This document shows positions 9,871 through 62,197 of a stretch of DNA of 64,000 nucleotides, in pieces. The translations under genes were made by a program, and so were the position numbers. The stretch is taken from positions 146,180,810 through 146,244,809 of the forward strand of contig CM059186.1 in the NCBI GenBank assembly GCA_030323885.1. The letters are read 5' to 3'. This DNA is from Branchipolynoe longqiensis. Taxonomy: Eukaryota; Annelida; Polychaeta; Phyllodocida; Polynoidae. Position 1 is the first letter of the stretch. Every line of letters starts with the position of its first letter. The notes beneath the pieces were generated by a model that did no database searches, was not told the origin of the DNA, and was given only the letters and a program-made list of their open reading frames with translations.

Positions 9871-10345
9871 CCTACCTGTATATTTAGCTAAATACACCTA
9901 TAAATAACTAAATAATACATATATACATACCTATATAACTACCAATAGATACCTACATAGCACCTATATATACCTATATATATCTATTTACAGCTATATA
10001 CATCCATATGCACGTATATAATACATATGCATACTTATCTATGCCTATTTATACCTACATATAGCTATATTAAGATATACCAATAACTATATACACATAT
10101 GCACACCTATATGCAGCCAAATAGACCTATATATACATATATATACTTACATATGCCTATATATACCCATATATACCTATATCTACCATATATTCCAATA
10201 TTTACCAGTGTACACCAATATAAATGTATTATATAGATACCCATAGATAGAGATATTCATGCATGTACACATGTATACGTGTATACATGTACACATATAC
10301 ATATACACATATATATGTATGCATAGCACATATAATTATGTATAT
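9871..10345. repeat. Degenerate AT-rich array, CTATATATACC-like
   Basis: Nearly 500 bp of imperfect 10-14 bp units such as ACCTATATATACC, passing into alternating TACACATG repeats at 10260-10320. No coding potential is assigned. Confidence 0.75.
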
Positions 10346-11559: not shown

Positions 11560-11583
11560 GTAGTGCTCTTTTACTGTTTTCTA

Positions 11584-12304
11584 AAGGGGCTGTCACATTA
11601 TGACGCATCGTGCCAATGTACGCCGGCATATGTGATTATTGGCCGCTACGTCGGGATATGTTGTCATGCATTATGCATGCGTTAGGTGCTCATTGGTATA
11701 CGCCAATGTACGTCGACATTCGTTGAGATACGGCGTGGCGCATCAGGGGGTCAGCAAAGTTTTGTGCATGTGCAAAACTTTTGATGTACGACAACGTTCG
11801 ACAACGTGTGGATTTTACATCCGCCGTACACTATGTATACGTTAGGCATATGTCAATGTACGTTAAATGTACATTAGACAAATGTTGTTCACTATGTTGC
11901 ACTACGTTGACCTACGTTAAAGGCAGTGGGAAGGTACAGTCTGCATACTGACAACATATGGATAACGTAATCTAACATACGTCTAACATACATCTAACAT
12001 ACGCTTAGCATTTCCCGAGCAGGTCTTGACATATGGTACGTATGAGGTGTAGTTCTGGCGATCGAATACCGTATATAACATTAACTGGCATTCTGCGAAT
12101 GTACCATTAGCATAATACGATAATTTTTTGTCAGGAGGCCCGTTAGCCATATGTTGGTCATACTTTGACCATAAGCTATGTATGCGGTATGTATACGTCC
12201 AACTTTGCTCCCCATGCTGAAAAGTTTGGTTCTTCTCGACGTAAAAAAGTGATTTTATGTGTTCGCCGCGCACTTGCAAGATGCGTCATAATGTGACAGG
12301 GCCT
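11584..12304. mobile_element. Foldback element FB1 (TA-flanked) with 11-bp repeats
   Basis: Long inverted ends: left AAGGGGCTGTCACATTATGA, right (reverse complement) AGGCCCTGTCACATTATGAC, flanked by TA (11582-11583 and 12305-12306). No transposase reading frame. Inside are three 11-bp units TCTAACATACG/A (11971-12003) and scattered TACGTT/ACGTAC palindromes. The TA target recalls mariner-type elements, but the superfamily is unproven. Confidence 0.75.
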
Positions 12305-12306
12305 TA

Positions 12307-12824
12307 AAGGCCCTGTCACATACACATTAGTGGACGTAGTTGAACGTAGTGGAGGCTAACATAGTTGAACGTAGTTGAACGTACCAGCATCCATTCTTGT
12401 CCGTGATGTTAACCTGGTAATAACATGGGTGAGCAGTGAACTTCGATTTAATTTTTGGACATATTCAAAGGAGCAGTACATTAGAGGCTGAATTTTCATC
12501 CGTGATGCTAAGATACTCTAGCATACTCAAGCATACTCTAGCGCACTCTAGCATACTTGGACGAAGCCCTGGTCACATAGACATTAGTGGATGGAGGTGA
12601 ACGTAGTGGAGGCTAATGTAGTTCAACATAGTTGAACGTAGTTGTACATACCAGCATCCTTACCATATCGTATTTATCCATACCGTAGCTTATAATTTAT
12701 CCATACCAAAATCTCCAGTACCGTAACGTATTTCAATGTAGGTTAATGTACTTACACCATGTTTGACCCACGTTAATCTATCCTACGTATCACTACGTCC
12801 ACTAACGGCTATGGGACCAGGGCT
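12307..12824. mobile_element. Foldback element FB2 (TA-flanked), composite, with 10-bp repeats
   Basis: Left end AAGGCCCTGTCACATACACA, right end (reverse complement) AGCCCTGGTCCCATAGCCGT. Flanking TAs are at 12305-12306, shared with FB1, and 12825-12826. A second internal start (GAAGCCCTGGTCACATAGAC, near 12563) makes it composite; FB3 has the same architecture. It carries 10-bp units GCATACTCTA (12515-12556) and single GTTGAACGTA motifs. Confidence 0.75.
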
Positions 12825-13327
12825 TAAGTCTATATATTTGTGTTGCTAGGCACATTTGAAACTCTATGAGCTGGTTCAATTGATCAACAAGCATCATTGA
12901 TGGCTGAGGGGGAAAAAAGCAACATCAGTATCTATTGGGGATTCCACATATTTATTGTAATTACCAACTCTCAATCTAATCATAGCTAACTTGATATGTA
13001 TCACATCGACTCAAATTTAATACTCTAAAAATTAAAACTAGATTCCGCCTTTGGAGATAGGTGGCTTGCATTCTGCTGAGTCACATTTCAATAAAAGTCG
13101 GAACCATTCCCAGATGTCTCGAGTCTGATTTCTACGTTTTAATAAGCAGGCGGGACACTGCATTGCGATAACTGGAAGTCCGAGGTGTTATGTCACAAAG
13201 GATATTCGCTTCTTTGTTTTTAGATTAGTTCTACTTTTTGACATAAGAACTATTTTCTCATACTTTAAAACTTGTGTTTGTTTATTACTCAACCAACACA
13301 GCACAGCGTAATTAGAACATTTTGTAT
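12825..13327. other. Unassigned spacer
   Basis: AT-rich; nothing recognised. Confidence 0.35.
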
Positions 13328-13590: not shown

Positions 13591-13999
13591 TGAGTGATCA
13601 GTAATATATATAACGGTCATTAAAGACCGACCGTTCTTTAATCAAACAAAAACCTGAGACGAGCTTAGTTGTAAATGGCGGGAACCAGGCTACTTGCAGT
13701 ACCGGAACCGAACCACACACCCCTCATTTTAGATCCACACTGTGCAGAATTCCGTTAACAAAATCTATAAAAAAAGATGTGGCTGTATACTGTAAAAGTA
13801 CAACGTCTGAACACTTTGACTTCTGGATACTGAATGCTTTATTCACCGTCAAGGGCTCTGAACCACTGGCTAAACTTTCCATGACGTCATCTCATTAATG
13901 ACTGGGTCCCATTGTGCATCTCATTAGCATCTCATTAGCATATATTACATATACCTTTCCCGCCGATAACATATTTACAATGCCAAGAGTATTCTTAGC

Positions 14000-14358
14000 T
14001 TAAAATTGCATAGTCCGATGGTTTAGAATTTCTGTCATTTTCTGAGATAAACATATTAAGTTGATCGTTATCATCTATATTACTTTAGTTGGAAGTAACT
14101 TTTATTTTAACTGGCTAACTTTTGAGATATTAGAAATGCAAATGTGCAAAATAAAATTTGGCAAGCATGCCAAAACTCTTTCCCCATAGGCTTCTGCAAT
14201 AACAGGTTCTATTAAATTGACTCAGTATCCCTAACTATGCAGCGACAAATGTTTAATAAGTGCACCAGTATCTAAGTTAGATATGGAGAATCAGATCTAG
14301 ATAATTGTTTTGGTTATATAATGAAAATTTGATATTTTCATCGGACTATTTAGCTGTA
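14000..14358 (+). mobile_element. MITE-A copy, about 360 bp
   Basis: Starts TTAAAATTGCATAGTCCGAT and ends TTCATCGGACTATTTAGCTG. The right-hand TTAA is mutated. The internal sequence aligns throughout with the 2155 and 47826 copies, for example TGATATTAGAAATGCAAATG-like and CAATAACAGGTTCTATTAAA blocks. Confidence 0.75.
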
Positions 14359-18576: not shown

Positions 18577-19338
18577 AGCAGTAGAAGGTGAGCATTAGAC
18601 GGTGAGCAGTAGAAGGTTTAAAACCCAACCAGGAGTTAGACCATCTACTGCTCAACATCTAATGCTCACCGTCTACTGCTAACATACACCGAAATCAACA
18701 ATATTACACACATAATTTCCTAAGTTCATTGGTATTTCATCACATCATACTGGTACAGTTATTTTGCTCGACAAGCAGTAGAAGGTGAGCATTAGACAGT
18801 GAGCAGTAGAAGGTTTAAAACACAACCAGCCAGGAGTTAGACCATCTACTGCTCAACATCTAATGCTCACCGTCTACTGCTAACAATAAACATCACATCA
18901 TGCTAACATACACCGAAATCAACAAACACACACTATATACAATTAATACACAAATTTAGACACATAATTTCATTAATTCATTGCTCAGTTACACCTCACT
19001 CCATATAGTAATACTTCATATAGTAATACTTCACATACACTATTGCTCATCACATCATACTGGTACGGTTATCTTGCTCGACAAGCAGTAGAAGGTGAGC
19101 ATTAGACAGTGAGCAGTAGAAGGTTTAAAACACAACCAGCCAGGAGTTAGACCATCTACTGCTCAACATCTACTGCTCACCGTCTACTGCTCACAATAAA
19201 CATCACAATGGTACATTGATTTGCTCGACAAGCAGTAGAAGGTGAGCATTAGACAGTGAGCAGTAGAAGGTTTAAAACACAACCAGCCAGGAGTTAGACC
19301 ATCTACTGCTCAACATCTAATGCTCACCGTCTACTGCT
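18577..19338. repeat. Array of four long near-identical hairpins
   Basis: Each unit has a 40-bp 5' arm (AGCAGTAGAAGGTGAGCATT...), a 24-28 nt loop (TTTAAAAC...CAGGAGTTAGA) and a complementary 40-bp 3' arm (...TGCTCACCGTCTACTGCT). Units: 18577-18680, 18774-18881, 19084-19191, 19231-19338. In the first, 36 of 40 arm positions pair. Most units are preceded by TTGCTCGAC. RNA from either strand would form long hairpins; function unknown. Confidence 0.85.
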
Positions 19339-19680
19339 AACAGACACCAAAATATTAAAACCACACCCACCACACACGAGACAAACCGCTTGGTACACAT
19401 TTTCAATAAAAAATAGACGTTTTGCACTGCGCGTAACGGCAAACTCAATGCATTGTCACTGGCCTTGGCCAATCTTAAACTTTTGAAACTAATACTGGTC
19501 AAATTGAAACAGTAACAAAATGAGGACGTAGATAAATATGTGCTCTAGGGCATGCAACCAAGACTTAAATTGTAGCTAGAAATCCATCCTTTTGGCGACC
19601 TGAAACGTAACACATACTACAAAGCTAGCGTTATCATCCTTGCCGAACACATTCACGGTGATCGGCAGTATTCACACATA

Positions 19681-44849: not shown

Positions 44850-45620
44850 TGATTGCCTTTGTGTGGCTTCATGTGGCTTCATGTGGCTGTGTGAGGCTTT
44901 GTGAGGCTTTATATGGCTTTGAGTGGCTTTGTGTGACAGTGTGTGGCTTTGTGTGGCTTTGAGTGGTTTCGTGTGGCTTTGAGTGGCTTTGTATGTCTTT
45001 GTGTGTCTTTGTGCATCTTGTTGTGTGTGTGTTTTTGTATGTTATTGTGTGTCGTTGTGCATCTGTGTGTGTCTGTGTGTGTCTGAGTGTGTCTGTGTGT
45101 GTCTTTGTGTGTCTTTGTGTGTCTTTGTGTGTCTTTGTGTGTCTTTGTGTGTCTTTGTGTGTCTTTGTGTGTCTGTGTGTGTCTTTGTGTGTCTTTGTGT
45201 GTCTTTGTGTGTCTTTGTATGGGTTTGTGCGTCTGTGTGCATCTGTGTGCGTCGGTGTGCTTCTGTGTGTGTCTGTGTGTGTCTGTGTGTGTCTGTGTGT
45301 GTCTGTGTGTGTCTGTGTGTGTCTGTGTGTGTCTGTGTGTGTCTGTGTGTCTGTGTGTCTGTGTGTGTCTGTGTGTGTCTGTGTGTGTCTGTGTGTGTCT
45401 GTGTGTGTCTGTGTGTGTCTGTGTGTGTCTGTGTGTGTCTGTGTGTGTCTGTGTGTGTCTGTGTGTGTCTGTGTGTGTCTGTGTGTGTCTGTGTGTGTGT
45501 GTCTGTGTGTGTCTGTGTGTGTGTGTGTCTGTGTGTGTCTGTGTGTGTCTGTGTGTGTCTGTGTGTGTCTGTGTGTGTCTGTGTGTGTCTGTGTGTGTCT
45601 TTGTGCGTCTTTGTGTCTCG
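44850..45620. repeat. GTGTGTCT 8-bp minisatellite
   Basis: About 750 bp: TGTGGCTT units first (44850-45000), then GTGTGTCT with TTTGTGTGTC variants, then a long homogeneous GTGTGTCT block (45255-45600). The long HTDTHRHTQ and CVCVCLCVS open frames derive from this array. Confidence 0.95.
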
Positions 45621-45825: not shown

Positions 45826-46152
45826 GACAGGACGCGGTGGCCGAATTGGTAGGCCCACAGGGTTCCCGTGCGGAAGGTCTGGAGTTCGAATCCCGGCCGA
45901 ATCAAACCAATTACTTATCAAATGTATACGTCTTGCTACCTAGCAGGACAGTTGGCATTAATAGGATAGGGAAAAGACTGGTTAGCACAGGATCAGGATA
46001 ATTTGACTGGGTCGGATATCAGGTCATGGTATCTAAGTAGGGCAGGGCAGCACTAAAATGTTACAATGAGTACACACTGTTACAATTTAGTACCCGTAGG
46101 ACGTTATCTGTTGCTAGGACATCAACCCCTAACAAACAAAAAACAACAACGA
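45826..46152 (+). mobile_element. SINE-A copy with 12-bp target duplication
   Basis: TTCTACATATCC at 45814-45825 and again at 46153-46164 flank the element exactly. Head ACAGGACGCGGTGGCCGAAT, B box GGAGTTCGAATCCCGG, tail AACAAACAAAAAACAACAAC. This copy defines both SINE-A boundaries and proves retroposition. Confidence 0.93.
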
Positions 46153-46330
46153 TTCTACATATCCAACTTAGATACTGATGCAGTTATTAAGCTTTTTCTT
46201 TGCAACGCAGAAGTGGACAGCAAGTCAATGTAATAGAATATGTTCCCACTGAAGCCAATGGTGTCAGAGCTTTATGCCCCCGTCACATACACGTTAGTGG
46301 AGGTAGTTGAACGTAGTGGAGGCTAACGTA

Positions 46331-46650
46331 GTTGAACGTAGTTGAACGTAGTTGAACGTAGTTGAACGTAGTTGAACGTAGTTGAACGTAGTTGAACGTA
46401 GTTGAACGTAGTTGAACGTAGTTGAACGTAGTTGAACGTAGTTGAACGTAGTTGAACGTATTTGAACGTAGTTGAACGTAGTTGAACGTAGTTGAACGTA
46501 GTTGAACGTAGTTGAACGTAGTTGAACGTAGCTGAACGTAGCTGAACGTAGTTGAACGTAGCTGAACGTAGTTGAACGTAGTTGAACGTAGTTGAACGTA
46601 GTTGAACGTAGTTGAACGTAGTTGAACGTAGTTGAACGTAGTTGAACATA
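46331..46650. repeat. 10-bp minisatellite, (GTTGAACGTA)32
   Basis: Exactly 32 units of 10 bp. Only five units differ: one TTTGAACGTA, three GCTGAACGTA and a terminal GTTGAACATA. FB2 holds the same motif as isolated copies, so this array is a recent local expansion. Confidence 0.97.
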
Positions 46651-46780
46651 CCGTCATCCGTACTTGTCCGTGATGTTAACCTGGTAATAACGTGGGTGAG
46701 CCGTGATGCCCAATTTAATTTTTGGACATGTTCAAAAGAGCACTACATTAGAGGCTGAATTTGCATCCATGAAGCTGACA

Positions 46781-46860
46781 TACTCTAGTGTACTCTAGCA
46801 TATTCTAGTGTACTCTAGCATACTCTAGCGCACTCATGCTCTAGCATACTTTGGCATACT
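46781..46860. repeat. 10-bp array TACTCTAGCA within FB3
   Basis: Units TACTCTAGTG and TACTCTAGCA alternate, then degenerate. Homologous to the four-unit array at 12515-12556 in FB2. Confidence 0.85.
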
Positions 46861-47499
46861 TGGATGAAGCCCTGGTCACATAGCCATTAGTGCACATAGG
46901 TGAACGTAGTGGAGGCTAATGTAGTTGAATGTAGTTGAAAGTAGTTGAACATACCGGCATCCATACCATAAAGTATTTATCCATACCCTATTTATCCATA
47001 CCATAACGTATTTATCCATACCAAAACCTGCCGTACCTTAACATATTTCAATGTAGTTTAACATACTTACACCCCTTTGACCCATGTTAGCCTCCACTAC
47101 GTTCACCTACGTTCAACTACGTCCACTAACGTGTATGTGACCGGGGCAATACCGTACATGTGGACGTTAATTTGGCATGTTTGTACTTTAAATATTTACG
47201 AAATTACCCATTTAAACTGAAAATTACCTTTAACTAGAAGTAGTAACGTAGATCATAACAACCAGCCTAATGTATTTATCTCAAACACTCCGAACTATGC
47301 AGCTTTAACAAAGGTGTGTTTTGTGCAGAATATTAATTGGGAGTTTGCATTATGGAGGAGTGGAGTGAAAACGCGCTATGAGGCGATTAATGAGAGTTAT
47401 TAATTAAACATGTTTTATCGCTGTGACGCCGACACAGTCACAGATTCACAGTTGCTTGTGATTATAGTATTTAGCCCCAAATGTGACCCATATCCGTCA

Positions 47500-56217: not shown

Positions 56218-56385
56218 GTGTATAGACATATACATATTACACATATATACATATATATACATATATATGCATATATATACACATATATACACATATATAC
56301 ACATATGTACACATTTATGCCCATGTATATACATATATACACATATATACACTTATATACACATATATACACATATATACGGATA
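56218..56385. repeat. ACATATATAC microsatellite
   Basis: Imperfect 10-bp ACATATATAC repeats, of the same type as 56820-57110. Confidence 0.85.
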
Positions 56386-56819: not shown

Positions 56820-57110
56820 TTTACAGCATATATCGATATATATATGCACATATATGCACATATATACACATATATACACATATATACACATATATACACA
56901 CATATATACACATATACACACATATTCACATATACACACATATATATAAACACACATACACACATGTACATATATATACATATATATATACACATGTACA
57001 TACATAAATATAGACATGTATGCATATATACACATATATTCACATATATGCACATATATACAGGTATATATACATATATAAAACAAATATATACACATGT
57101 ATATATAGAG
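56820..57110. repeat. ACATATATAC microsatellite in the loop of the inverted duplication
   Basis: Imperfect CACATATATA / CATATATACA repeats of about 290 bp. Confidence 0.85.
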
Positions 57111-57199
57111 GTATACCTGGCTTGGCACTGTAGATACATTCCTAAAAGCACTCAATGAAACAATGCTATATGGGGTCATTATAACATAGCATAAATAGA

Positions 57200-57276
57200 G
57201 TTTGTGTGTTGGGGTTTTACATCCTAGCAAGACTTAATATCATATCAGGATGGGTACCGGCTGGTGACAACCTCAG
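57200..57276 (-). mobile_element. SINE-A tail fragment
   Basis: GTTGGGGTTTTACATCCTAG to ATGGGTACCGGCTGGTGACA; only the 3' 70 bp remain. Confidence 0.65.
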
Positions 57277-57417
57277 TGGTAGATTGTGCTATAGTTAGAT
57301 GGCAGCCCCCACATGTGCTGTGTGTTGTGAGCGAGAGCAGAGCAAAGAACCAAGGTGTGAATCTCATACGATATAAAAAGGGTGGAAAGAGGTTGTTGCT
57401 ATGATAAAAGGGTGCTA

Positions 57418-57566
57418 TAGGTTGGTTGTTGGAATTTTACTTCCTGGCAATATCTACGGTCATATCAGGACATGTACCGACGTGTGAAAGTGCGCACTGA
57501 TGGCGACTTTATAGTGCTCCCCCACCGGAAGACCAGGCTGCCAGCACTATGACCTGATATTCCGAC
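57418..57566 (-). mobile_element. SINE-A 3' half
   Basis: AGGTTGGTTGTTGGAATTTT through CAGCACTATGACCTGATATT. Its first about 20 bp belong to the right arm of the inverted duplication. Confidence 0.8.
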
Positions 57567-58506
57567 TCCAACGGTCTCCCGGCTCTCACTTCAAATACAT
57601 GTATATTTATATATCTATATTCAAAGTAATCATACCTTTCTCCATCTGGGCGAAACCAGCTACAGTCAGCTTGCATTTGTAGTCTGACCTGGTTTAATTT
57701 CCCGTTAATTATTAGATCAACTCGCATAACTAATTATACAGGAGAGCATCTATATGTCCACCAACCCACACTTTCCCATAGAGAGAGAGAGATAGAGGAA
57801 GGGGGGGGAGGGGGGTGGAGGGGAGGGTGGTTGGTGGTATGTTATTTAGTACCACAAAACACTGATCAATATCATGAAAGCCCGCCTCGTCCATTTCACC
57901 TCAGTGCCAGTGAAGCTGCTTTATATATATATTTAAACAGTAGCCGCCACCCGGCACACCTCCAACGCGATCCTACCGAACCCTAAAGATTGCCTTCCAC
58001 AGTGGCGCTCTATGAGGATCTATCGCTGTACACTGGACCCCGAGGCCATAACTGCCTTCTGCCACTTCCCTACATATTGAACCGCCCCGGAGATAAACTA
58101 CTTTTCGCCGGCGGTCTAACCATGGTATGCAGACGACAATGAGATTAAATGAGCCTTCAGTCTGTCCGACAGCTGCACCTGTGGTACGCACCCTCTACGA
58201 GTCCGCGCAAGCCGACCAGGGGTCAAAGGTCGCGACCTTGCTAGGTCACGTGGTCACTGCTGACCCACCAAGCGGTGAACTCTTCAGAGGGTGAGTGGGA
58301 AATGACTGCGTCCGTCTGCAATGGAGCGATTGTTTTTTTTCCCTCCAGGGATGTATGTGCATGGGAATCACGTTCAAGCCGGAAGTGGAATTGTCGCGAG
58401 CCGGCAGAGGGCGTGTGTGTGTTATTATCTGGGAACTGGGTTTGCCATTTGGAGGAGAGAGCGTCTTTGCGCATGCTCGGTTCAACTTCAAGGTCTTCCT
58501 CTGTAT
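57567..58506. other. Unassigned spacer
   Basis: GA-run and G-rich stretch at 57780-57835; no gene supported. Confidence 0.35.
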
Positions 58507-58508
58507 AG

Positions 58509-58745
58509 TTAAAGCCCCAGTCACACCTACCCAGATCAGGGGCCGGACGAGCCCCGGACCCTCATCCGGGGTGGTCCGTGGCAATCCGGGGTGATCTGTG
58601 GCTGGTCCGTGGCTGGTCCGTGGTGATCCAGCCTGATCCAGCCTGATCCAGCCTGATCCGTGGCTCGTCCGGCCTCATCCGGGGTCCGCCCCGGATGTTT
58701 TAAAATGTTTAAAACATCCGGCGCGGTCCGGGGCATTTTGCGGTT
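58509..58745. mobile_element. Half of a foldback element (FB5) with 10-bp repeats
   Basis: After a TA, AAAGCCCCAGTCACACCTAC resembles the left ends of FB1-FB4. It is followed by GC-rich tandem GGTCCGTGGCT / GATCCAGCCT units; GATCCAGCCT is repeated three times at about 58625-58656. The other terminus is not seen, so this is a truncated or diverged member. A short inverted motif ACATCCGG...CCGGATGT lies near 58690-58720. Confidence 0.5.
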
Positions 58746-58839
58746 GGTATTCGATGGTGTTCATAGGCTGCTCATTTCTAGGTATTTCAAAACCTAGATA
58801 ACATATATAGCAATTGATGAATGGGGTGTGCTGCACAGA

Positions 58840-58972
58840 ATGCAGCATATTCCAATTCCCCATCTCCATGTACAAACCAAATGTGATCACTTCAACGGCT
58901 GGAAGACCAGTGCCTCAGAACTTACAAAATACATATTCAAATGAATAAAATATTTACCAAAAAACCCAAAAG
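58840..58972 (+). mobile_element. Retroelement 3' tail, class 1, hairpin decayed
   Basis: ACGGCTGGAAGACCAGTGCC, then TCAGAACTTACAAAATACAT and GAATAAAATATTTACC. The 3' arm of the hairpin is mutated. Confidence 0.6.
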
Positions 58973-59300
58973 TAACAAGAGTAGTAGGGGGAGGGAATTC
59001 CATTGGTATATTATCTAGGTTTTGAAATACCTAGAAATTAGCAACTTATGTGCACCTTGGAAGGTAGACATAAGTTATATACCAATAGATCTCCCTCCCA
59101 CGGAACTACCTTGTATATGATTATTGAAACCTGCCTATGCATACATAACAGAAATATGGATAAAATAAAAAAGCAACCATTAATGTGTGTGCGATGTTTC
59201 TCTGGATTCTTGATCTGAAATATAAACATAGGTACCAACATAGCAGCTAAAGTAGTAAATCTAGAGATGTCTAGATGTAGATCTCGATCTATGTGTGTGC
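58973..59300. other. Unassigned; short inverted repeat
   Basis: TTCTAGGTATTTCAAAACCT at 58777 and AGGTTTTGAAATACCTAGAA at 59017 are exact inverses about 240 bp apart, bracketing the class-1 tail. Confidence 0.6.
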
Positions 59301-59627
59301 TCTGTTTGTTGTTGTTTTACATCCTAGCAACATCTAAGGTCATGTAAGGATGGGTACCGACTTGTGACAGTGCACACTCATGGTGACTTTATAGTGCTGC
59401 CCCACTGGGAGACCAAGCTGCCAGAGCCATGACCCTATATCGCACAGTCACATTATCCTGATACTGTCCGAATCAAGTCTTGTCCTATCCTATTAATGCC
59501 GAGCGCCAGGCTAGGTAGTGATGAGTATATATTTGATAAGTCATTGGCTTGACTTGGCCGGGAATCGAATTCCCGACCTGCCGCATGGGAAGCCTGCGCT
59601 ATAACGATTTAGCCAGCGCGCCCAGTC
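59301..59627 (-). mobile_element. SINE-A copy, full length
   Basis: Tail TTTGTTGTTGTTTTACATCC to head CGATTTAGCCAGCGCGCCCA; core complete, B box CGGGAATCGAATTCCCG present. Confidence 0.9.
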
Positions 59628-59647
59628 ATTTAGATTTATCTTACTTA

Positions 59648-59697
59648 TCATCATCATCATCATGCTGTCGGTCGCGATGCGACAAAGACTGCTTTCA
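59648..59697 (-). mobile_element. LINE-D 3' terminus, 50 bp
   Basis: ATC repeat, then ATGCTGTCGGTCGCGATGCG and ACAAAGACTGCTTTCA: the shortest 5'-truncated copy of the family. Confidence 0.75.
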
Positions 59698-60171
59698 CTT
59701 ACTTATAGACTTATAATATATACCTAAATGTAGAAAAATTATTTTTTCCCAACAGGATTTTTTTGTTTGCTTCGTAGGCTTGCATATAAATTATAATACC
59801 TGGTGGACCATATTCATCCTCTGCTCTTGCTATAAATAACGACAACAATTAGTATGCTCCAAATACTGAACAAGTAATGCCGGGCTGAAGAATCTAGTGG
59901 ACAACATTTACATATATTTACAGATTGTTTATTTATGCACTTTTTGTAGTGAACACTTGCTCTGTGATCTAAGCAGGCAGATATAGGAGGAGGCCGCTGG
60001 TGGCTCAGGCTTGATTGTACCTGGGTAGTCATAGAGGTCCCCTTTGGTTGTCACGTCACGTGAGATATGTGATGTAATAACTCGCGACTTGCGAACATGT
60101 CTTGCACGGATGCACTATCCAGCTGTCCAATCACGCCTTTAGTGGTGGACATGTTGTACAATACCAAACTC
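59698..60171. other. Unassigned spacer
   Basis: Nothing recognised. Confidence 0.3.
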
Positions 60172-60322
60172 GCTGGTTGGTTGATTGATCGATTGGTTGA
60201 TTGCTTGTTGTTTATTGGGGCAGCACATATGAGGTCATATTACAATAGGTACCGACTTGTGACAGGATTCACTGAAGTTTGCGTTATAGTGCTGCCCTAC
60301 TGGGATGAGGTGCTGTTCTAAC
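60172..60322 (-). mobile_element. SINE-A 3' fragment, degraded
   Basis: GGTTGGTTGATTGATCGATT, TAGGTACCGACTTGTGACAG and TTATAGTGCTGCCCTACTGG are recognisable; the rest is lost. Confidence 0.65.
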
Positions 60323-60668
60323 CACTAGGTTAAGGCAGTTGGAAGACAACTATGAACGGTTCCTCCAATTTCTATTGTTATTGTTTCTATTCTTATGTTT
60401 GTAGAACGATGTATGGAAATTGTGAATACAAAATATCTCAAATGATTAAAAAAAATGTCTAGGTGTTTCCTGTCTAAGGAACACGTTTGGATTCGGTGTG
60501 GAGAAATTATCAAAGTGCCCAGTCTGGGGAACATATGTAAGTTTGGTGCGGAAGAATTAGCAGTGTACCCTTTATATTAAGGTTATTTAAAGTGGTATAG
60601 TCCGATGGTTTTGAGTTTCTCACATTTTCTGAGCTAAACATATTAGGTTGTTCATTATAACTACCTTA

Positions 60669-61359
60669 TACCCCTGTCACACTACGACGTAACAAGCGAA
60701 CGTGAGCCTAACGTGGCGATCTTTCGTCATTACGTTGATGTATGTTGGATTACGTTATGATGACGTCATAATGATGTTAGACTGACATCGAGCTATGACA
60801 CATTACGTCGTGTTACATCGAGTTGCGTTGAGGTTTTGGACAAGTTCAAAAATTTCGACGTAGCTCGAACGTAAGGGTTTACATTCGCCGTACGTTCTGT
60901 TCACGCTCAGTGAACGTCAATGATGTTAAACGGACGTTTTTCCAACGCTGCTCACTACGTTCAACTACGTTCCACTATGTTGACCCACATTAAACCGAGT
61001 GCAAATGCCCACGTGGTGTAATGGGAACATCAGGAGAACGTCAGGAGAACGTCAGGAGAACGTCAGGAGAACGTCAGGAGAACGTGCATTCAATGTACGT
61101 TCAACGTCTCATGACGTAGGTAACATCACATAACGTTCTTCTGGCGATGGAATAACATTCATAACGTTCCGTGAGCATAGTGACGTTGTCCTCTCTCGTT
61201 GAATGACGGTATCACTACGCTTTACCGACGTTACGCTCTCGTCCACTACGCTGCATCCACGTTCAACTTGTGCCCAAATTTGCATACTACGCCGAGAAGT
61301 TCAACGTTCTTCACGTTCTCCCTACGTTGACGTCATTACATCATAGTCTGACAGGGCCA
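60669..61359. mobile_element. Foldback element FB4 (TA-flanked) with 11-bp repeats
   Basis: Left TACCCCTGTCACACTACGAC, right (reverse complement) TGGCCCTGTCAGACTATGAT, TA at 60667-60668 and 61360-61361. It holds five exact 11-bp units CAGGAGAACGT (61031-61085) and many ACGTT/AACGT half-sites. Non-coding. Confidence 0.85.
61031..61085. repeat. 11-bp array (CAGGAGAACGT)5
   Basis: Five identical consecutive 11-bp units inside FB4. Confidence 0.95.
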
Positions 61360-61784
61360 TAACTTTAGTTTGAAGTAACTTTTATTTTATATTGCTAACT
61401 TTTGAAATATTTGGAATGGAAACATACTAAATTAACTTTGGCAAGCTTGCCAAAACTCTATCACCATAGGCTTCTGCAATAACAGGTTCTATTAATTGAC
61501 TCAGTATCCCCTTATATGTGACGACAGATGTTTAATAAGTGCACCAGCATATAAGTTAGATATGTAGAATCAAATTTAGATAATTGTTTTGGTTTTGACA
61601 ATTTTATGTTTTCATCGGACTATGCAGCAGCTTTAAGCTGCATGAGTACAGACAGTAAAAGGAATATCCGGCGTGTGGGCGGAACTGGGCACTCCCAGGT
61701 GGCGCCACCGGGTCAGTTAAAGGAACTAGAGCACGACAGTGGCAATGTTATTGTCGTGGGTGTGATGAAAATGGAAAGTATTCT

Positions 61785-62197
61785 GCCTCCAGCAGGGTTC
61801 GAACCCAAACTTCTTGCCATTCCGGGGCTAGCATGCTAAGAATTACACTACCTAAGCTTCCTGATGCAATCACTCTATCCATGCCTACCTGTCTATGTGG
61901 CTCCTTGCACTCTTGTGCATGAGGGGGTCAGTGTATTACTACACTTTTGTCCCTGGAATTGTAAGTCTCTTAAATGGGTTACGTCCATATGTTGTTTAAT
62001 GATTACAGTTGCATAGCTACAGGAAATGCACTTATATATACCCAGAGTAAGTTCAATAACCATACAGCACATAGGTTTTAGAGAGTTTTGGTCATGGCAA
62101 GCAGTATCGTGGAGCAAGATGAACATGGGCAACATCGTGCGTAGAGCCGGATTCAAACCCGCACTTCTTGTCATTCCAGGGCTGGCCTGCTAACCAT
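61785..62197 (-). mobile_element. SINE-C, head-to-tail dimer
   Basis: Minus-strand tRNA-like modules at 62138-62197 (5' end missing) and 61785-61860, about 350 bp apart, each with TGTAATTCTTAGC/AATGGTTAGC and GGTTCGAACCC-type boxes. The linker carries AGACTTACAATTCCAGGGAC and AAGGAGCCACATAGACAGGT, as in the 39590 dimer. Confidence 0.75.

Follow-up and report, generated by a model that had tools for sequence, protein, structure and literature searches.

The four complete elements, FB1 to FB4, in the 64,000-nucleotide stretch of Branchipolynoe longqiensis DNA analyzed here (the window) are MITEs with CCCTGTCACA-type ends, and the bodies of the elements of this group recur at 10-11 bp in a family-specific, mostly CG-centered word, laid out around an AT-rich palindrome that they have in common. 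Each tandem array is a stretch of clean unit repetition within such a word-built body. We regard the group as MITE families of the PIF/Harbinger type built from words, in preference to the view of the preliminary description, that of foldback elements founding minisatellites singly. The explanation that we favor, with a probability of roughly 0.55, is that FB1 to FB4 are nonautonomous PIF/Harbinger-type (Tourist-like) MITEs at TWA targets, the words being putative protein docking sites and the arrays slippage expansions.

The Elements in the Window

The ends of the group are written as TWA + GGCCCTGTCACA, and for FB1 to FB4, all on the forward strand, the element coordinates, ends and arrays first described were borne out. 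FB1 (11585-12304), of the ATACG/TACGT word class, has a TIR of ~24 bp (23/24 match), an exact match to the central palindrome AAGTTTTGTGCATGTGCAAAACTT at 11757-11780 (palindromes are given without strand), and an array, called by TRF and on the forward strand like the other arrays of FB1 to FB4, of three 11-bp units, TCTAACATACG, at 11971-12003; by pairwise scores, its relatives elsewhere in the genome are the loci L045, L049, L056, and L060. FB2 (12308-12824), of the GTTGAACGTA word class, adjoins FB1, and the TAA at 12305-12307 is common to the two, the target duplications as read from the sequence being TAA at 11582-11584 and 12305-12307 for FB1, and TAA at 12305-12307 and 12825-12827 for FB2. 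The TRF arrays of FB2 hold 2.6 units of AACGTAGTTG at 12358-12383 and 4.5 units of ATACTCTAGC, present in FB3 too, at 12513-12557. FB3 (46275-47149), with flanks of TTA on the left and TAC on the right and with an empty-site comparison that gave no decision, holds 32.3 units of AACGTAGTTG (98% matches) at 46325-46647, 5.5 units of TACTCTAGCG at 46779-46835 (both TRF), and a weak copy of the palindrome, with 4 mismatches, at 46717-46740. With 76% identity over 551 bp in BLASTN, and with both arrays at the same positions, FB2 and FB3 are copies of one element. The array unit had been described as different in each element, and differing units do recur in the group, but those of FB2 and FB3 are not different, since the two are one element whose pair of arrays occupies matching positions. 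FB2 and FB3 each enclose a further left end (at 12567 and 46870, respectively), which is directly oriented. A first look at the genome gave 6253 candidate copies of FB2, and the best matches of the 40 that were scored are 79-100% identical; in 30 of these 40, FB2 included, the best match spans the query from base 8 or before to at least base 509, so that the composite seems to move as a unit.

FB4 (60669-61359), of the AACGT word class and flanked by TTA and TAA, has the central palindrome at 60831-60854, with 3 mismatches, and 5.5 units of the 11-bp GAACGTCAGGA at 61025-61085 (TRF). Its alignment with FB1 runs end to end at a score of 170 (100 shuffles, mean 6.6, sd 3.9; reversed strand, 28), with the 11-bp arrays at aligned places, and the two are distant relatives. 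FB4 has 32 occurrences of the tetramer ACGT in its 692 bp and FB1 has 13, the background over 589 windows of 700 bp outside elements being 1.0 on average and 14 at most. When array units were compared, with rotation and strand allowed and 200 shuffles for each of 15 pairs, the FB2 unit and the unit of the second FB3 array were found to be 1 edit apart, and FB1 TCTAACATACG and the FB2 unit 2 edits apart (p 0.005, among 15 pairs compared); the 3 edits between the FB3 and FB4 units (p 0.025) are not safe given 15 pairs, and the remaining 12 pairs have p of at least 0.075.

Five elements had been credited with common ends, which is true of FB1 to FB4, but FB5 (58513-58735, end approximate; forward strand) has one end only, and a search of 57,000-62,000 with one pattern found no partner end. 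FB5 has a CCGG-type word and is probably a truncated relative, with 3.6 units of TGATCCAGCC at 58624-58659 and a palindrome of like design, judged by eye, at about 58696-58718. Its recurrence at lag 10 has a z of 14. The list of elements to which this value belongs was chosen in part by eye from arrays of this kind, and a z of 3.5 at lag 10 or 11 was also attained by 52 of the 297 random segments.

Arrays with units of 10-11 bp make up 13 of the 17 inside FB1 to FB4 versus 22 of the 136 elsewhere in the window (TRF, non-redundant, score of at least 30; Fisher p = 8e-7), and, at a score of at least 50, 4 of 7 versus 6 of 65 (p = 0.006). Genome-wide, a three-unit pattern of AACGTAGTTG has 3223 + 3180 matches, many of them overlapping. 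The GTTGAACGTA array, seen at L021:195-490 and at 46325-46647 of the window, varies from 2-3 to more than 30 units across copies, and, among the first genome matches on contig C1, some runs extend across more than 400 bp. Arrays of 10 bp are common more generally across the genome, and long ones, mostly AT- or GT-rich, lie outside recognized elements at 9879-10206, 44857-45616, 56228-56380, and 56840-57103. Some arrays are devoid of CG, examples being ATACTCTAGC in FB2, TGATCCAGCC in FB5, and ATTTTGATAC in L017, and these count against the explanation that we favor. At 18577-19342, repeated hairpins arise from 14-bp arrays of AGCAGTAGAAGGTG plus its inverse.

Inheritance of Arrays and Target Sites

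The genome assembly (1.85 Gb, 1914 contigs) was searched with FB4, yielding 7607 first-look candidates, and the 40 scored all match at 92-100% over 691-692 of the 692 query bases. We examined 24 FB4-type copies, namely FB4, 20 of its 39 best-scoring relatives, and three from sampled DNA. The GAACGTCAGGA-type 11-bp array is found at the same place in all 24, so that the array belongs to the family and not, as had been claimed, to each member on its own. The array stretch is 56, 67, or 78 bp long in 7, 9, and 8 copies, respectively, all 24 lengths being 1 mod 11: arrays are inherited by the copies of a family, with gain or loss of whole units. In the L018 copy, most of the array units share an altered form, which would be expected from array homogenization. 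Two FB4-type copies outside the 24 have 2.5 units only by TRF (L007, which is cut by the end of its stretch, and L072).

The 24 copies are flanked by TTA/TTA in 10 cases, TAA/TAA in five, mixed TTA and TAA in six, TTA/TAC in two, and GAA/TAA in one, i.e., 15 have equal TTA or TAA flanks and 21 have TWA on both sides; the nine with unequal flanks count against the PIF/Harbinger reading. The TA previously noted on both sides of the elements is indeed present; in most copies it belongs to a duplicated TTA/TAA of 3 bp. Given the TWA flanks and the shared array, we therefore take the FB4-type elements to be TWA-targeting MITEs, with the array as part of family inheritance. Their assignment to PIF/Harbinger rests on the TWA target duplication, which is given for this superfamily in PMC4482050; the same source has PIF TIRs beginning usually, not strictly, with A or G, and the first base is A in FB1 and FB2 and T in FB3 and FB4, the latter counted against PIF. 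A dispersed repeat of ~320 bp has many copies in the window and in the sampled DNA (13995-14320, 60588-61600, 46151-47283), and FB3 and FB4 are each inserted in copies of it. Among five window relatives of the FB4 host repeat that are without FB4, four have TTA at the insertion place and one has ATG. Elements of the piggyBac type target TTAA, and we rejected this assignment since the fourth base beside the TTA or TAA varies among the copies.

The Wider Group and Its Words

The sampled DNA amounted to 200 kb, taken by position as 20 stretches of 10 kb each, two of which flank the window. The sample has 19 end-like matches, of which seven were not counted as members (one in L008, four in L011, which are simple repeats, one at 824 in L018, and one in L019). 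Further elements, whose ends are identical or similar, are built of other words, such as CATACGC (L015), GCGCG (L021), and TCGTC (L014), and elements with CCGG/CGGA words are found in L010, L017, L018, and L024. A palindrome close to AAGTTTTGNNCATGNNCAAAACTT is present in most sampled elements of the group. With up to 4 mismatches, AAGTTTTGNNCATGNNCAAAACTT has 12 matches in 276 kb, including L003, which was fetched by end-pattern search, and leaving out two matches with 5 mismatches, versus a mean of 0.7 and a maximum of 7 for 30 permuted palindromes. The 24-bp palindrome pattern has 11,231 exact copies in the genome, and its reversed control has none.

Twenty loci were picked by palindrome from 50 places listed, all lying within 11 Mb of the start of one contig; this is a small sample, with a few loci chosen for rarer middle bases, and it represents the exact-palindrome classes, by our reading mostly those of CCGG/CGGA words. 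In ~1.1 kb around each palindrome, flanks included, TRF called 54 arrays, 42 of 10-11 bp, six of 20-22 bp, and six others, and an array of period 10-11 or 20-22 is present in 19 of the 20 loci, L054 being without any. When pieces of 320 bp are compared, such arrays are found in 16 of the 20 palindrome loci. By comparison, none of 20 copies from a dispersed repeat family and none of 37 SINE-like repeat copies carry one, and random pieces do so in 28 of 300 cases. The association of the MITE group with 10-11 bp arrays that had been proposed is thus well above the level of two other repeat families and of random DNA, and this comparison did not refute it. We rejected chance in a 10-bp-rich genome as its source: arrays of 10-11 bp do account for 22 of 136 and 25 of 182 outside (the latter including eight or nine in elements recognized later, in L007, L010, L014, L017, L018, and L024), yet the two other repeat families have none.

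The period is a property of the bodies and not of the arrays only. When each array is reduced to one unit by masking, the recurrence of 4-mers in the 20 palindrome-picked loci is 3.2x and 3.5x the shuffled level at lags 10 and 11, respectively (1.4x and 1.7x in 60 random segments), and 2.9x, 1.8x, and 1.6x at lags 20, 21, and 22, with lags 31-33 also raised; a z of at least 2.5 at lag 10 or 11 is reached by 17 of the 20 loci (L055 at 2.5 as printed) versus 8 of the 60 controls. One word runs both in and out of arrays in most elements, which does not support the notion that the period recurs rather than the sequence. Pairwise scores among 19 elements, the palindrome removed, are 43-756 within classes and 18-86 between them, these ranges overlapping and some between-class pairs being at chance (150 shuffles, mean 20, maximum 27), and suggest about six word classes among the 19; L003 matches none of them.

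Alternative Explanations for the Period

Neutral slippage, in which ancestral short CG-rich repeats expanded, homogenized without benefit, and were then inherited by copies, would give rise to much of this pattern as well, including the whole-unit steps in 24/24 FB4-type copies, the 32 near-identical units of FB3 versus 2.6 in FB2, the joint change of most units in the L018 copy, and the presence of 10-11 bp arrays elsewhere in the window (22/136); but we consider it somewhat unlikely, as the 10/11 period persists in bodies with arrays masked, is the same across about six word classes, and has no counterpart in the arrays of two other repeat families of the same DNA (0/20 and 0/37).

Helical or nucleosome phasing, by which selection would hold CG steps one turn apart irrespective of sequence, is improbable. 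Periods of 10 and 11 do bracket the 10.5-bp turn, and CG-CG distances, pooled over 14 elements with arrays left in, do peak at 10 and 11; further peaks, however, are at 20, 22, 30, and 33 and not at 21 (0.7x), while the masked bodies do have a 1.8x excess at lag 21, beside those at 20 and 22, and the CG-step spectral peak at 9.5-11.6 bp beats shuffles (p < 0.05) in 5 of 14 elements only, FB4 being at 0.06. Because the unmasked distances skip 21, the units look discrete and not helix-phased, with some lag 21 seen in masked bodies, and the steady helical phase earlier ascribed to the arrays is not what these distances indicate.

The best inverted repeats are 24, 40, 53, and 21 aligned bp long in FB1, FB2, FB3, and FB4, respectively, and 19-46 aligned bp in 13 of 15 elements, so that the long inverted repeats of the foldback class, making up most of an element, were not found, and this class was rejected; the arrays lie outside the TIRs in FB1 and FB4, partly within the inverted repeat in FB3, and within it in L021a. 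That long inverted repeats extrude hairpins and found a new minisatellite in each member is very improbable, for, even with the 96 aligned bp of L021a, with arrays in both arms, and the 53 bp of FB3, one array is common to 24/24 FB4-type copies and both arrays are common to FB2 and FB3, on which grounds independent founding, copy by copy, was also rejected.

Proposed Docking Sites and Known Systems

If the elements are PIF/Harbinger-type MITEs, a word would be a docking site for the Myb/SANT-like protein of an autonomous partner, or for the transposase. Slippage would multiply such sites, more sites may bring more mobilization of the element and selection for site number, and the word may differ between families because the specificity of the protein drifts. 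More tentatively, a single PIF/Harbinger-type chassis, consisting of ends and palindrome, may have been rewritten repeatedly in various CG-centered words, each word being the binding code of a separate Myb/SANT-like partner that evolves fast, in which case the MITE bodies would be a genome-wide record of specificity switches, and the minisatellites a by-product of selection for a larger number of docking sites. Both proteins are needed in PIF elements (PMC2836001), the Myb-like protein of Harbinger3_DR recognizes a 9-bp subterminal motif, and partners of the MADF type are described as evolving fast (PMC9710019).

PIF/Harbinger elements and Tourist-like MITEs share with the group the TWA duplication, short TIRs, and thousands of nonautonomous copies. 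Unlike in these, the bodies here recur at 10-11 bp in a family-specific word, and a 24-bp palindrome is common to several word classes. One parallel is presented by the foldback-like Galileo and Tetris of Drosophila, which also have internal tandem repeats of variable number, proposed to contain transposase sites (PMC3573991, PMC4079207); in one Galileo subfamily or more, secondary binding sites are reported within the tandem repeats of the TIRs (PMC3573991), and Tetris repeats have given rise to a satellite (PMC4079207). Their repeats, however, are of ~210-220 bp in long TIRs, and the units here are of 10-11 bp in short-TIR MITEs. Another parallel is the minisatellites derived from transposable elements, where arrays likewise grow within an element from short direct repeats, by slippage or unequal exchange (PMC6947457, PMC9659126); unlike in these, the period here recurs across many families of one group, in different words. 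The ISL2EU elements (PHIS group) have a target duplication of AT and not the TWA of the group here (PMC4482050), and DDE_Tnp_4 transposases such as theirs are also present in this genome. Among the literature matches listed, word-built MITEs were not found by title or abstract start, most subscription journals being outside the scope, and nothing relevant to the end sequence was found by title.

If the docking-site reading is true, thousands of minisatellites of one period and many sequences would be explained as expanded docking sites inherited with transposon families. The about six word classes on one chassis would then be a natural set for studying how a DNA-recognition code changes, and such change in a transposon would be directly testable, because words can be matched to Myb/SANT-like proteins.

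Transposases and a Two-Gene Element

Both a PIF-type transposase and a Myb/SANT-like gene are present in the genome. A genome-wide search for DDE_Tnp_4 gave 5155 first-look candidates, and the 150 scored are all above the curated cut-off; the named relatives of one of the transposases, from three animal groups, are 48-50% identical to it. Viral contigs were also searched, with 0 matches. Among six DDE_Tnp_4 loci examined, an autonomous element with CCCTGTCACA ends was not found, which counts against the favored explanation. One two-gene element of the PIF/Harbinger type (L067-L065-L068), which looks autonomous, has ~5.6 kb between inverted copies of AGCTGCGTTTACACGG and carries DDE_Tnp_4 and Myb_DNA-bind_4. 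The word AAACG/CGTTT, chosen after reading this element, occurs 18 times in its left part (three of these in the second copy of a 170-bp tandem repeat), 23 times in its right part (which includes the Myb exon), and twice in the middle; shuffling gives 4.6, 5.9, and 5.3, respectively, and 0 of 500 shuffles reach the count at either end, while no single 6-mer of the ends is above the highest of 100 shuffles. The target duplication of this element is unsettled because its flanks can be read as ATA/ATA or TAA/TAT. We rejected it as the parent of the MITEs, given these flanks, its different ends, and the spacing of its word, which is not 10-11 bp. Another locus, L066, combines DDE_Tnp_4, a THAP domain, and a frame resembling YqaJ, a domain set like that of ISL2EU; L069 to L071 resemble it, as judged by eye only. 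At L072, a DDE_Tnp_4 frame is open over 359 aa, and an FB4-type copy lies just downstream, at L072:1210-1820.
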